From assembly GCA_020250175.1 (NCBI GenBank), contig JADCEN010000025.1, positions 1 to 60,044 of the forward strand: a DNA stretch of 60,044 nt, written 5' to 3'. A program made the translations under genes and the position numbers. The notes below the pieces were generated by a model that worked only from the letters and a program-made list of their open reading frames with translations, had not been told where the DNA came from and made no database searches. This document shows, piece after piece, positions 168 through 6,171 of the stretch; position 1 is the stretch's first letter; every line of letters starts with the position of its first letter. The DNA comes from Rhodobacter sp. GTDB lineage: Bacteria > Pseudomonadota > Alphaproteobacteria > Rhodobacterales > Rhodobacteraceae.

Positions 168-818
168 ATGCTCCGTCCAGCCGCCCTCGTCCTGACGTTC
201 CTCGCCCTCACTGCCACGGCAGTGAGCGCGCAGGAGTTCACCGCCCGCAGCGGCGGCCCCTCCGCTTCGGCCATGACGGGACGCGGCAGCGCGCCCGCCG
301 AAGGGCTCGCCTTCATGCGCCCGGTGCTGTCGGGTGTTCTTTACCGCGCGGGCTTCCAGGGCGGCGACAAGGGCCGCACCGGCCTGTCCGAGGCGCAGCT
401 GGCAGCCCTGTGCAACGCGGGCTTCTCACAGGCCCGCTACATCGATTTCGGCAAGAACGCCGCCTATGGCATCACCCGCTGCTCCACCGGCGAGATCAGC
501 TATGCCCCCGGCAAATCTACCAAGCCTGCGCAGGTGATGCGCGACATCCACGCCATCATCCGCAACCCCGATCAGGGGCCAATGGTCGTCCACTGCATGT
601 GGGGTGTCCATTCCTCCGGCGCGATCAGTGCCATGGCGCTGGTGCAGTTCTGCGGGTGGAACGAAACCCGCGCCAAGGCCTATTGGGAAGAAGCCCGCAA
701 CGGCGCCGACTGTTCCGATGGCTGCGATGCCTGGATCGACCACCATTTCGATACGTTCGACTACGACCCCGCCCTTGCCCTTACCCCCGCCGAACAGGCC
801 GCCATCTGCCCCAAATGA
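168..818 (+). CDS. Exported Cys-phosphatase-fold protein with the P-loop Arg replaced by Ser
   Basis: The 216-residue product begins with a signal peptide (hydrophobic residues 5-19, cleavage probably after Ala at about 21), so it should be periplasmic. Residues 48-200 look like a tyrosine/dual-specificity phosphatase fold: a VLYRAG strand near 57-62, a leucine-rich helix at 73-85, and the P-loop HCMWGVHSSG at 142-151 followed by an alanine-rich helix. Canonical enzymes have Cys-x5-Arg-Ser/Thr; here Cys143 is kept (TGC at 594) but the Arg position is Ser149 (TCC at 612), so normal phosphomonoesterase chemistry is doubtful. I chose the ATG at 168 over the upstream in-frame ATG at 141 because it gives a clean signal peptide and follows GAGAGGAC. 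The stop overlaps the next start as ATGA, implying translational coupling with the kinase-like gene. It may be a pseudophosphatase that binds phosphorylated ligands, or use different chemistry. Confidence 0.75.
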   Translation: MLRPAALVLTFLALTATAVSAQEFTARSGGPSASAMTGRGSAPAEGLAFMRPVLSGVLYRAGFQGGDKGRTGLSEAQLAALCNAGFSQARYIDFGKNAAYGITRCSTGEISYAPGKSTKPAQVMRDIHAIIRNPDQGPMVVHCMWGVHSSGAISAMALVQFCGWNETRAKAYWEEARNGADCSDGCDAWIDHHFDTFDYDPALALTPAEQAAICPK

Positions 819-2062
819 CCGGACCCGCCATGCCCAGACAGCTCCTTCCGACCGCCGCCCTGCTCCTCGCCCTCGCCGCGCCCGCGCTGGCCAATGACGA
901 CGTGCTGGGCACCGAGACCCTGTTCACCAGCCCGAACGGCATCAGCGAACGCTGCGTCCGTATCGCGCCCATGCCGGGCGCCAGTTATTCCAAGGACGAC
1001 CTCGGCGCCGAAGAAGCCTTCTGCGCCATCGACCTCTATGCCCCCAGCGTCGCGCTCTGCCCGAAGACATGGAGCACGAGCCCCGGAATGATCATCCATG
1101 ACATCTCGTCTGGCGCTTACCAGAACGACCGCCGCGCCTTCGAAACCCGCGCCTGTCCCGAAGGCAAGGACGCCAAATCGCTTGGCGCGGGTGAACTGGC
1201 CAAGTTCAAGCCGACGATGAACGCCCAGGGCACCTCCGGCACCTTCTCTGCGTCGCCGCTGCTGTACTACCACCTCTCGCGCTTTCTCGGCGCTGATATC
1301 GGCGTTCCCCCCGCCGTCTGGCGCGGCATGGACCGCCAACAGCATCTGACCGAGGTCGCCCGCCCCGGCGTCGCCATCTCGGGCCACAGCCATTCGTCTG
1401 ACATGAACCGCGCCGGCTGGCAGGTCCTCGTCAAGGCAGACCAGACCCCCGACGCCTACAGCCCGACCGACGACCTCTTCACCGCCGACCGCACGGCGCT
1501 CTACGGTGTGATGCTGCGCTCCAAGGGCAATCGCTACAGTTCCGAATTCAATGGTACCCGTGCGTCGGGCTGGGGCGAAGGGCAGAACCTCGACTTTCAG
1601 GCCACCGCCCCCTATCTGGCGCTGCGGTCGCCGAAGCCGCTGGCCGAAGCCGTGACCGAAGGCATCGCGCAATCCCTGAAGGACCCCCAGATCCGCCGCG
1701 ACATGGGCGATGCCCCGGACCCGCGCCAGATCGTCTACTGGATGACGGACCTCACCCAGATCGTGCTTTTGGACTTCATCCTCAGCCAGCAGGACCGGAT
1801 CGGCAACATCGACTATGTCGAACATTGGTACTGGGTCGAAAACGGCGCCGTGAAATCCCGCAAGGCGGTGTCCCACGGCGACGAGACGGACCCCCTGCCC
1901 CCAGGCGCCGTCCGCATCAAGCGCACCCACCTGAATGACAACGACGCTGGGGGACGGGTGGAATACGCCAATTTCGCCAAGAAGACCGGCATGCTTGACG
2001 ACCTTTTCCACTTCCCCGCACCAACCTATCGCCAGCTCATGGCGCTGGAGGCCGATCTGTAA
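815..2062 (+). CDS. Exported atypical kinase-like protein, ended early by an in-frame TAA
   Basis: The 415-residue product has a signal peptide (hydrophobic residues 10-26, ALA-N cleavage). Several features recall the atypical kinase superfamily that includes Fam20C, HipA and PI-kinases: FKP at 131-133 as possible ATP-binding Lys; YHLSRFLG at 152-159 followed by VPPAVWR at 164-170, as in the family's helix plus VPP segment; DFILSQQDRIGN at 320-331, resembling the catalytic D...DRxxN loop; and LNDNDAG at 373-379, resembling the metal-binding Asp motif. Four Cys suggest disulfides. The start at 815 overlaps the upstream stop (ATGA); ATG at 830 is an alternative. The frame stops at TAA 2060-2062, yet the same frame stays open and gene-like for 68 more codons to TGA 2267-2269, exactly where the next gene starts. 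The kinase assignment is inference from motif order; the export signal and the stop are directly visible. Confidence 0.7.
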   Translation: MTGPAMPRQLLPTAALLLALAAPALANDDVLGTETLFTSPNGISERCVRIAPMPGASYSKDDLGAEEAFCAIDLYAPSVALCPKTWSTSPGMIIHDISSGAYQNDRRAFETRACPEGKDAKSLGAGELAKFKPTMNAQGTSGTFSASPLLYYHLSRFLGADIGVPPAVWRGMDRQQHLTEVARPGVAISGHSHSSDMNRAGWQVLVKADQTPDAYSPTDDLFTADRTALYGVMLRSKGNRYSSEFNGTRASGWGEGQNLDFQATAPYLALRSPKPLAEAVTEGIAQSLKDPQIRRDMGDAPDPRQIVYWMTDLTQIVLLDFILSQQDRIGNIDYVEHWYWVENGAVKSRKAVSHGDETDPLPPGAVRIKRTHLNDNDAGGRVEYANFAKKTGMLDDLFHFPAPTYRQLMALEADL

Positions 2063-2269
2063 TCCGAAGGACCGCTCCACAGCTACCTGCGCACCTCCTT
2101 CGGCCTGTCTGACCGGCAGTTCGAACAGCTTGTCAGCAACACACTCCTCGCCGCCGCAACCCTGCGCAGCCAGTGCCAGGCCGGATCCATCCAGTTCGAC
2201 CTCGACCCCGGTGCCTTCCTTCTCACCGGCAACGCCACGCCCGAACCCGTCGATTGCGCCGCGCCGTGA
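2063..2269 (+). pseudogene. C-terminal 68 codons separated from the kinase-like gene by an in-frame TAA
   Basis: Directly after TAA 2060-2062 the same reading frame continues for 68 sense codons with strong G/C third-position bias and ends in TGA at 2267-2269. The encoded tail has a helical Leu-rich stretch and two further Cys. Its stop overlaps the GTG start of the metallophosphatase (2266) as GTGA, mirroring the ATGA overlap at the operon's other junction. This says the ancestral gene had about 484 codons and that the TAA is recent, a sequencing error, or read through. No start codon or ribosome binding site suggests separate translation of this piece. Confidence 0.7.
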
Positions 2270-3228
2270 GGCGCGTTTGGGCGGTGGCCCTGACCTTTGC
2301 GCTGCTGGCGGGCCTGGCCCCGCCAGTGGCCGCCAAAACCCTGCAGATCGCGGTGATCTCAGACCTCAACGGCCCTTATGGCAGCACCGAGTATAGCCCG
2401 AGGGTGGCCAAGGCCATCGCGGCGATCATCGCCCGGAAACCCGATCTGGTGATCAGCACAGGCGACATGATTGCGGGCCAGCGTGCCGACCCGAAACTCA
2501 GATCGGAAGACCTTGCCGCGATGTGGGCCGCCTTCCACGCCACGGTCAGCGACCCGCTGGCGCGGGCAGGCATCCCCCTGCTCGTGACCCCCGGCAACCA
2601 CGACGCCTCCGCCTCTCCGGGGTATGAGCACGAGCGCCGCGCCTTCGCCGCAGCCTGGGCCGACCGCCGCCCCGACCTGCCCCTGATCGACGGCGCGAAC
2701 TGGCCCTTCCGCATCGCGGCCACCCTCGACGGGACCCTTCTCGTCGGGATGGACGTCACCCGCGCCGGCCCGCTCGATGCCGCCTCCCTTTCGTGGCTCG
2801 ACGGCCTGTTTTCGGACCCGGCGCACAAGGGCGATACGATCCTGCTCTTTGGCCACATCCCCCTCATGCCCATCAGCCAGGGGCGCGAGGGCGACATTCT
2901 TGCCGATCCCGCCCTTTTTTCCCTTGCGCAACAGGCGGGCGTAGACCTCTGGCTCTCCGGCCATCATCACGCCTTCTACGGCGGCACTGCTGGCGGTATT
3001 CTCTTTTCGGCGCAGGGTGCCTTGGGCAACGGCCCGCGCGCCCTGATCACCGAGACGGCACGCAGCCCCCACAGCTTCACATGGGTCGAGATCACCGAAG
3101 ATGGTCACATCACCGTCGCTGCCCTGCCCAGCCCGGATTTCGCCGTCCCCCTGGCCATTACCTCCCTCCCTGCCACTCTGGGGGACGGCCCCTTCCGCCT
3201 GAGGCGCAGCGCCACCCACCCCGACTGA
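2266..3228 (+). CDS. Exported calcineurin-like metallophosphoesterase
   Basis: The 320-residue product has a signal peptide (about residues 1-23, PPVAA-K) and the ordered metallophosphatase motifs: SDLNG at 32-36, GDMI at 66-69, GNHD at 110-113, GHIPL at 196-200 and GHHH at 232-235. The first motif is normally DxH; here the His is Asn35, which would change one metal site but leaves the other ligands. I chose GTG 2266 because it overlaps the extended frame of the preceding gene (GTGA) and starts the signal peptide; there is no nearby in-frame ATG. Third gene of an operon whose other members look phosphatase- and kinase-like. Substrate unknown; it could dephosphorylate a periplasmic protein, sugar or nucleotide. 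Confidence 0.85.
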   Translation: MRRVWAVALTFALLAGLAPPVAAKTLQIAVISDLNGPYGSTEYSPRVAKAIAAIIARKPDLVISTGDMIAGQRADPKLRSEDLAAMWAAFHATVSDPLARAGIPLLVTPGNHDASASPGYEHERRAFAAAWADRRPDLPLIDGANWPFRIAATLDGTLLVGMDVTRAGPLDAASLSWLDGLFSDPAHKGDTILLFGHIPLMPISQGREGDILADPALFSLAQQAGVDLWLSGHHHAFYGGTAGGILFSAQGALGNGPRALITETARSPHSFTWVEITEDGHITVAALPSPDFAVPLAITSLPATLGDGPFRLRRSATHPD

Positions 3229-3903: not shown

Positions 3904-6171
3904 CTACACCACGGTCAGGCGCGGTTCCCCCGCCTCGATGCGGCCAATGACGGCGGCCGCCTCGCCCTGCCCAAGCAGGGCCGCGACCAGCGTTTCGGCC
4001 TGCTCGGGCGGCACGGCGGCCAGAAGCCCGCCCGCCGTCTGCGGATCGAACAGCAGCGCGGCACGGGGGCTTTCGGCGAAGTGCATGCGCGGGGCCGCCG
4101 CCGCGCGGTTCGCCGGGGCCAGGGATGAGGCATGGCCCGCCGCCGCCAGCGCCTCGGCCCCCGCCAGCAGGGGAACGCAGGCCAGATCAAGCCGCGCGGC
4201 ACAGCCCGACGCCTGCAGGAGTTCCAGAAGATGCCCGGCAAGACCGAACCCGGTCACGTCCGTCATCGCATGGGCCACCGGGGCCAGCAGCGCCGATGCC
4301 GCACCCATCGGGCGGCACATCTGCGCGTAAGCCCCCGCCACCGCTTCGCCCAGCAGGCCGCCGGGCAGCAGGGCCGCCACCATCTCGGCGGCCAGCAGGG
4401 TGCCCGTGCCGATCGCCTTGGTCAGGATCAGCGCGTCGCCCGGCCGCGCGCCGCCTTTGGTGACAACGCGCCCGGCAAGCCCCGTCACCGTGAAGCCCAG
4501 CGTCAGCTCTGCGCCGATGGCGGTATGTCCGCCCACAATATCGGCCCCCGCCGCGCTGAACACGCCGGACGTCGCCTGCATGATCTCGCGCAGGGTCGCG
4601 GCCTGCATATGCGGGGCCAGGCGCGGCAGCGTTACCTGCGCCAGCGCCACCTGCGGGCGTGCGCCCATCGCCCAGATATCGCCAAGCGCATGGATCGCCG
4701 TGATGCGCGCCAGCAGCCAGGGGTCTTCGCTAAAGGCGCGGACGTGATCGGTGGTTATCACCTGCACCCCGCCGTCCCGGCGCAGCACGGCGGCATCATC
4801 GCCGGGGCCGGACAGCACATCGGCCCGGACCGGGGCAGGAAGGTGCGACAGGGCGGCAGCCAGTTCGCCCGCCGCCACCTTGGCACCACAGCCGCCGCAC
4901 AGCGGCTTGGCATCCAGCGCCCCGGCCAGACCAGCCGCATGTTCGGCGGGCAGCCCCGGCACAGCCATGGCCGGACAGGGGCCGAATTTCGCCATGAAGC
5001 GCCGGTCGATGCGGTCTTTCCAGCGCCACAGCACCGCACCGTCCAGACGCAGCCCCCATTTGTCGGCCACGGCCCCCTTGCCCCCCGTGGAGATCAGCTT
5101 GAGGTAGTCGCGCTGCGGATGGTAGCGGCGCAGGTGCCCGCCCGACAGGGCCGCGCGCAGGTTGTGCAGCAGCACCGGGGCCTGCCGCACCGCAAAGACA
5201 CCGGCCTTCGGGCGTGGCGCATGGGTCATCTGCACGCAATCCCCCGCGCCGAAAACCGCCGGATCACTGCTTTGCAGGGTCGGACCCACCGCGATGAAGC
5301 CATCGGCCAGTACAAGCCCGGTATCCCGCAGCCAGCCTTGCGGACGCGCCCCGGCCACGCCCAGCACGATATCCGCCGGAATCTGCGTGCCTGCCACCGT
5401 CTCCACGCCCTGCCCCGTTACGCGCGCCGCCGCTGTCTGTGTCAGAAGCTGCACGCCCAGCCGGTCCATATGGGCCAGCAGCGCCGCCCGCGCCCCCGCA
5501 CCCAAGCTGTCCAGCGCCCGGTCGGCCCGTTCCAGCACGGTCACGCAGGGCCGCCTTCCCGCCACCTGCAGCCGGTGGGCCGTGGCCAGGGCCAATTCCA
5601 CCCCGCCCACCCCGCCGCCCAGCACCACGACCTGCGGATCAATGGTTCCGGCAGCCAGGAAGCGTTCCCAGGCGGCGACAAAGGCCCCCAGCGGCTTGGC
5701 AGCCAGACCATGCGCGGCAAAGCCCGGCAGGTCGGGCAGGTCCGACGTGATGCCGATGTCCAGCGAGGCCACATCATAGGCAACCGGTTCACGCCCCTGA
5801 ACCATCACCTGCCGCGCGGCAAGGTCAATGCCCTCGGCCCGGCCCAGGATCAGCCGCGCCCCGGCGCAGCGGGCCAGCCGCACCAGGTCGATCATCATCG
5901 CATCGCGCGGGTAATGCCCGGCGATGCAGCCGGGCAGCATCCCGGTATAGGGTGCCACCGGGTCGGGATTGATCAGCGTCAGGCGCACCCCGGCCAGCGG
6001 GGCCATGCCCCACATCCGCAGCACCAGCGCATGGGCATGGCCACCGCCGATCAGCACCAGATCGCGGGTCAGGGGAAGCGGCGTCACCGGCGCGCCGGAA
6101 GCGGAAGGCAAAGGAACATCCGTGGTCTTCTTCCTGCCGATACACCCGGCGACCGGGGAAACCCCCGGCAT
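3904..6171 (-). CDS. selD: FAD-dependent oxidoreductase fused to selenide, water dikinase
   Basis: A 755-residue fusion. Residues 36-400 form an NDH-2-like flavoprotein: dinucleotide-binding GGGHAHAL at 42-49, a second Rossmann GGGVGGVE at 185-192, and GAGDC at 308-312. Residues 420-755 are SelD: LCGGCGAK at 424-431 with Cys428 and Lys431 in the positions of the catalytic Cys/Sec and Lys, GPGDDAAV, and GGHTAIGAE. SelD makes selenophosphate from selenide and ATP for selenouridine tRNA or selenoproteins; the flavoprotein domain is thought to supply or handle reduced selenium. The fusion is known in proteobacteria. No tRNA-Sec, selA, selB or mnmH is in the window. The start is uncertain: the ATG at 6171 adds about 30 unlike residues, and a GTG near 6087 would start just before the first FAD strand. 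Confidence 0.92.
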   Translation of the reverse strand: MPGVSPVAGCIGRKKTTDVPLPSASGAPVTPLPLTRDLVLIGGGHAHALVLRMWGMAPLAGVRLTLINPDPVAPYTGMLPGCIAGHYPRDAMMIDLVRLARCAGARLILGRAEGIDLAARQVMVQGREPVAYDVASLDIGITSDLPDLPGFAAHGLAAKPLGAFVAAWERFLAAGTIDPQVVVLGGGVGGVELALATAHRLQVAGRRPCVTVLERADRALDSLGAGARAALLAHMDRLGVQLLTQTAAARVTGQGVETVAGTQIPADIVLGVAGARPQGWLRDTGLVLADGFIAVGPTLQSSDPAVFGAGDCVQMTHAPRPKAGVFAVRQAPVLLHNLRAALSGGHLRRYHPQRDYLKLISTGGKGAVADKWGLRLDGAVLWRWKDRIDRRFMAKFGPCPAMAVPGLPAEHAAGLAGALDAKPLCGGCGAKVAAGELAAALSHLPAPVRADVLSGPGDDAAVLRRDGGVQVITTDHVRAFSEDPWLLARITAIHALGDIWAMGARPQVALAQVTLPRLAPHMQAATLREIMQATSGVFSAAGADIVGGHTAIGAELTLGFTVTGLAGRVVTKGGARPGDALILTKAIGTGTLLAAEMVAALLPGGLLGEAVAGAYAQMCRPMGAASALLAPVAHAMTDVTGFGLAGHLLELLQASGCAARLDLACVPLLAGAEALAAAGHASSLAPANRAAAAPRMHFAESPRAALLFDPQTAGGLLAAVPPEQAETLVAALLGQGEAAAVIGRIEAGEPRLTVV

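Follow-up and report, generated by a model that had tools for sequence, protein, structure and literature searches.

A conserved trio of leader-bearing proteins in Rhodobacter sp. joins a predicted Fam20-type kinase fold to two phosphatase-type partners

Among described systems, the Fam20 kinases (Fam20A, Fam20B and Fam20C) come closest to the one reported here. According to PMC5865150, Fam20 kinases pair their Lys with an acidic residue of the loop preceding helix αC, which is Glu213 in ceFam20 and Glu306 in human Fam20C; Fam20A, which carries Gln at the Glu306 place, is a pseudokinase. The subject of this report is a set of three genes of Rhodobacter sp. (contig JADCEN010000025.1), hereafter the trio, which are the first three + strand genes of the analysed window, a stretch of 60,044 nucleotides that is one complete contig. 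Structure prediction and comparison give gene 2 of the trio a leader and a Fam20-type atypical kinase fold, and the same kind of evidence shows that in most places where it is found it adjoins a leader-bearing protein tyrosine phosphatase (PTP)-like protein lacking the catalytic Arg and a leader-bearing metallophosphoesterase. As far as our searches show, such an exported Fam20-fold family in a conserved three-gene setting is undescribed in the literature. The genes are laid out as follows.

Positions 168-818, + strand: gene 1, predicted exported PTP/dual-specificity phosphatase (DSP)-like protein of 216 aa with an Arg-less P-loop.
Positions 815-2062, + strand: gene 2, predicted exported kinase-like protein of the Fam20 fold, 415 aa as it stands.
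Positions 2266-3228, + strand: gene 3, predicted exported calcineurin-type phosphoesterase of 320 aa with a GTG start.

Genes 1 and 2 share 4 bases (ATGA, 815-818), while gene 2 as it stands is separated from gene 3 by a gap of 203 bases because of a TAA stop. The coordinates, leaders, ATGA overlap and motifs that an earlier sequence-only reading had reported for this locus, including a VPP segment in gene 2, were all located where it had put them. The second overlap it described, GTGA, holds only for the extended frame (2063-2269), since gene 2 itself stops at the TAA at 2060-2062.

The sequence-only reading had also seen a Fam20C/HipA-like kinase in the middle protein. Structure prediction and fold comparison support the kinase fold and the Fam20 half of that likeness, Fam20 being nearest with PI4KII also near, and HipA scores lower. 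PI4KII, CtkA and HipT/HipA all give a lower Z than Fam20 and, to our knowledge, are not exported in the manner of gene 2; PF07804 (HipA) is unmatched in 34 gene 2 family members, and the DR-x-GN loop of gene 2 is one residue shorter than that of HipA. In common with the Fam20 kinases, gene 2 has the predicted fold, a secretory leader and the catalytic-loop Asp-Arg (34/34). It differs from them in its low identity (11-16% in the Fam20 rows listed), its bacterial operon, the lack of a PF06702 (Fam20) match in the 34 members at E<=1 and of an aligned Glu306 equivalent, and the distance from catalytic Asp to DND, which is 48 residues in gene 2 and 20 in human Fam20C. The putative active site comprises three elements, in which residues of the relative L014 are converted to those of the window protein by adding 6.

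Positions 1208-1210, + strand: Lys132 in FKP (K126 in L014), in a beta3-like strand (L014 120-127), invariant.
Positions 1793-1807, + strand: catalytic-loop DRIGN (D327 at 1793-1795), with Asp, Arg and Asn invariant.
Positions 1934-1948, + strand: NDNDA of NDNDAG (D375 at 1937-1939), a DFG-like metal site by position, with Asp-Asn-Asp invariant.

In the alignment, Lys126, Asp321-Arg322, Asn325 and Asp369-Asn370-Asp371 of L014 are invariant in 34/34 members, down to 28% identity. The predicted structure places DND after strand 360-366 of L014. A Fam20 catalytic-loop block found its best place at the DR of gene 2, with 0/300 column shuffles as good. When Fam20 blocks were scored against 300 open reading frames (ORFs), the single ORFs equalling or beating the family-profile score numbered 35 for αC-β4, 46 for αC, 202 for β4, 8 for the catalytic loop and 180 for DFG, in a sample that came from the fetched loci, included the family's own ORFs and consisted of single sequences, which score more sharply than profiles. 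A second test therefore scored single sequences after family ORFs had been taken out, using spacing ranges chosen with the gene 2 family alignment in view. The family minimum of 36.5 was reached by 3/223 background ORFs, the best of 1700 shuffles (51.2) exceeded the family median of 44.9, and four of the seven members listed (P0002, L012, L055 and L014) scored above all shuffles. Control scores ran from 20 to 51 for HipA proteins and from 24 to 34 for CotH proteins, the latter meaning that this test is blind to CotH.

Gene 1 had been described as a Cys-phosphatase with an altered P-loop, a likeness that finds support in weak sequence matches: PF00102 (E 0.007, below the Pfam cut-off, with matches at E<=0.1 in 17/21 relatives), receptor PTP S (E 0.012) and TpbA (E 0.02). 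The loop lies as follows.

Positions 591-620, + strand: P-loop HCMWGVHSSG of gene 1, in which the Cys is retained and Ser replaces the Arg of C-x5-R.

TpbA and other PTP/DSP phosphatases share the HC-x-x-G loop with gene 1 and have a catalytic Arg, whereas in the gene 1 family the C-x5-R signature is absent: none of the 34 distinct loops from the fetched loci has the Arg (Ser or Ala stands there in 34/34), and the Cys is kept in all 34. The loop consensus is HCMWGVH[S/A]SG, with HCWYGLHASG in a remote relative.

Calcineurin-type phosphoesterases usually carry D-x-H as their first motif. The assignment of gene 3 to this type is borne out by its PF00149 (Metallophos) match (E 6.6e-16, 59.7 bits, cut-off 21.5) and by its nearest profile match, the purple acid phosphatases (E 4e-9). 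It shares the PF00149 likeness with calcineurin-type and purple acid phosphatases and differs from them in its first motif, which is D33-L34-N35 in 20/20 aligned proteins.

The three-gene order, proposed earlier as something to look for in relatives, was found repeatedly. Protein searches recovered the trio at 21 distinct places, counting the window, and a search across the order, whose set overlaps that of the protein searches, found all three genes in 19/21 places (own included), the others being L051 with gene 2 alone and the fragment L054. A trio conserved in this way is not due to chance. Five loci (L002, L003, L004, L005 and L011) were treated as duplicates of L017, L030, L019, L021 and L026, respectively, and left out of distinct counts, and the fragments L013 and L032 were left out of the counts of trio places and of the stop position. 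The L018 locus ends before gene 3. The gaps, which depend on the scripted choice of starts, range from -35 to 51 bases between genes 1 and 2 (22 rows) and from -89 to 49 bases between genes 2 and 3 (20 relatives).

Leaders, called by a simple hydrophobicity measure rather than a trained predictor, are present in 21/21 complete gene 1 proteins, 23/25 gene 2 proteins and 20/21 gene 3 proteins. Among the gene 3 proteins, L010 has none with the start as called, the start of L023 was called too early, and L020, with a weak hydrophobic stretch, was counted via its twin-arginine leader, a type seen in five gene 3 proteins. The leaderless gene 2 homologues (L027:5992-7353 and L028:5980-7347), from Thiothrix and Aquificaceae metagenome-assembled genomes, have in-frame stops upstream, lack detectable genes 1 and 3, and are probably cytoplasmic. 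Gene 2 has six nearly invariant cysteines, of which L028 lacks C41 and C64 and L027 lacks C64, as expected if a C41-C64 disulfide forms outside the cytoplasm. A counter-example is L017, which has W at C41; L051 lacks C448 (its row ends before C475).

Our preferred reading, to which we assign a probability of roughly 0.48, is that the trio is a three-protein module working outside the cytoplasm, with gene 2 as an active phosphotransferase. Gene 2 would bind a phosphoryl donor, a nucleotide or another, and phosphorylate a protein, glycan or lipid that is secreted or belongs to the envelope. The gene 3 phosphoesterase would take the mark off, and gene 1 would bind the partner in its phosphorylated form and leave it uncleaved, or carry out some other Cys-based chemistry. 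A bolder version, which we consider unlikely, would make the trio an undescribed bacterial equivalent of animal secretory kinases, in which an active exported Fam20-fold kinase with envelope or secreted targets has its own extracytoplasmic phosphoesterase, a phospho-binding Arg-less PTP and an extracytoplasmic donor, and which may share ancestry with metazoan Fam20.

Several observations weigh against an active module. The Fam20 DFG block misses the DND site (128/300 shuffles were as good). The place of Fam20 Glu306 aligns to Thr137 of L014 and holds no acid (Thr in 32/34, Ala or Ser otherwise), nor does the canonical αC acid place, residue 142 of L014 (Pro, Ser, Ala or Ile); both places come from an ungapped αC alignment, and the loop alignment is uncertain. 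The kinase families of Pfam are unmatched across the 34 gene 2 members, and hhalign detects no profile-level similarity of the family to either Fam20 or CotH: for the Fam20 C-lobe, shuffles did equally well in 18 and 16 of 60 cases, and for CotH spore-coat kinase (PF08757), which Pfam searches of the 34 members also failed to match, its probability was 0.2%. Sequence alone led to little on the fold: PDB queries with the window protein, with the family as a whole or with two sub-blocks returned either no rows or ones attributed to chance, among them two weak matches to phosphorylase kinases (E 0.63 and 2.2) confined to the C-terminal tail region. Searches of the own genome for PF08757 and PF07804 gave no match. 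Also against an active module, homologues without detectable partners occur (L012, L027 and L028 with genes 1 and 3 undetected, and L051), two of them leaderless, and a phosphoryl donor outside the cytoplasm is a puzzle. Finally, gene 2 is truncated in the window's genome, as follows.

Positions 2060-2062, + strand: in-frame TAA truncating gene 2, absent from the relatives compared.
Positions 2063-2269, + strand: cut-off 68-residue tail of gene 2, corresponding to predicted C-lobe helices with two conserved Cys, in a frame that is open and still constrained.

This truncation raises the explanation that gene 2 is here a decaying pseudogene and the operon functionless in this genome, which we give an even chance and which is compatible with the other readings of the family. 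The stop position is a sense codon in 29/29 relatives covering it (24 distinct places), and in family profile searches the window's own protein is the sole full-length match with an internal stop, the fragment L054 also having one. No gene 2 match was found in the one same-genus genome listed, and gene 3 appears somewhat relaxed here, with ratios of amino acid-changing to silent changes (pN/pS) of 0.46 and 0.47 in the window comparisons vs 0.25 for L014 vs L016. The tail likewise appears somewhat relaxed (0.25 for the window vs L014 and 0.17 vs L016, against 0.07 for L014 vs L016, on few changes), but its changes beyond the stop are still mostly silent, which argues that the break is recent or an assembly error, with readthrough as another candidate. 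Genes 1 and 3 are moreover open, and the wider family is conserved. With its kinase-like gene freshly disrupted, or else mis-sequenced, the three-protein module is probably off in the window's genome.

For the family, the chief alternative is that gene 2 is a pseudokinase, a scaffold or ligand sensor like Fam20A that would bind nucleotide or phosphate without transfer, with gene 1 as a pseudophosphatase and gene 3 as the sole enzyme. The kinase-like and the phosphatase-like site of the trio are indeed both altered, to judge from their residues: the missing acid at the Glu306 and αC places recalls the Gln of the pseudokinase Fam20A, and the PTP Arg is gone from every distinct loop. We nevertheless hold this explanation doubtful, as the Lys, the catalytic Asp, the Arg, the Asn and Asp-Asn-Asp are invariant across the family, and since loop lengths differ, one of the other invariant acids in the N-terminal part (E39, D56 or D67 of L014) could pair with the Lys instead. 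A further acid, E60 in L014 numbering, is nearly invariant. An active phosphotransfer module is rated somewhat likelier than a pseudokinase scaffold. Kinase-fold enzymes can carry out other transfers, and the unusual DR-x-GN loop, the DND replacing DNG/DNA and the missing acid would fit a gene 2 fold that, like other atypical kinase-fold enzymes, serves transfer of AMP, glutamate or similar, but no feature was found pointing to a particular other chemistry and we regard this as improbable.

The gene 2 family is patchy. In genome sets that overlap, it was found in 13/198 genomes of the family (own and one degraded two-stop fragment included), 18/292 of the order (own included), 1/385 of the class (own only), 2/398 of the phylum (own and G307) and 1/149 of the family of G307 (G307 only). 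In G307 (27-28% identity), genes 1 and 2 are adjacent and gene 3 is undetected. G772 carries the whole trio twice (L057 and L058), with similar neighbours and about 32 kb apart, and partial extra gene 2 copies of about 110 residues occur in Rhodovulum euryhalinum (L032) and in G799 (L054, with an internal TAA). A partial gene 2 relative of 47% identity (L116) lies at the end of a contig filed as viral, and this was the single match in the viral-contig collection. An anti-phage origin and plasmid carriage were rejected, with no PADLOC match at E<=0.1 and no match in the plasmid collection, respectively.

Neighbouring genes were compared at 20 trio loci with flanks of unequal length (L018 included; L060, the same place as L022, left out). 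A DUF4956-like membrane protein, a weak assignment (Pfam scores of 16.3, 20.5 and 11 bits vs a cut-off of 30.6, and none for the L015 copy at E<=0.01), occurs in 15/20 neighbourhoods, and an SdiA-regulated/phytase-like protein in 10/20. Examples are listed below, with a further ORF of the window.

L015:3417-4337, L022:8360-9130 and L061:8932-9690: DUF4956-like membrane protein near the trio.
L015:4337-5266, L018:2701-3615 and L057:6185-7138: SdiA-regulated/phytase-like protein near the trio.
Window positions 3904-6171, - strand: long ORF whose product we take to resemble a fusion of an FAD oxidoreductase with a SelD-like protein.

Neither neighbour was found at the trio loci L014, L016, L017, L020 and L031 or at the gene-2-only or pair-only loci L027, L028, L055, L056 and L059, and a search of the own genome, run without a control, gave no match for the DUF4956-like membrane protein. 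According to PMC7112168, genes for CotH kinase and DUF4956 occur as neighbours next to the Pel clusters of Gram-positive bacteria, a pairing that is therefore a precedent for an extracytoplasmic kinase accompanied by a DUF4956-like protein. For the trio, this analogy may serve as a lead and carries no class membership.

In bacteria, extracytoplasmic phosphorylation is little known and its phosphate donor puzzling. As a compact exported operon that would combine a protein of predicted Fam20 fold with two phosphatase-type partners, the trio is a testable case and offers a bacterial comparison for the secretory kinases and pseudokinases of animals.
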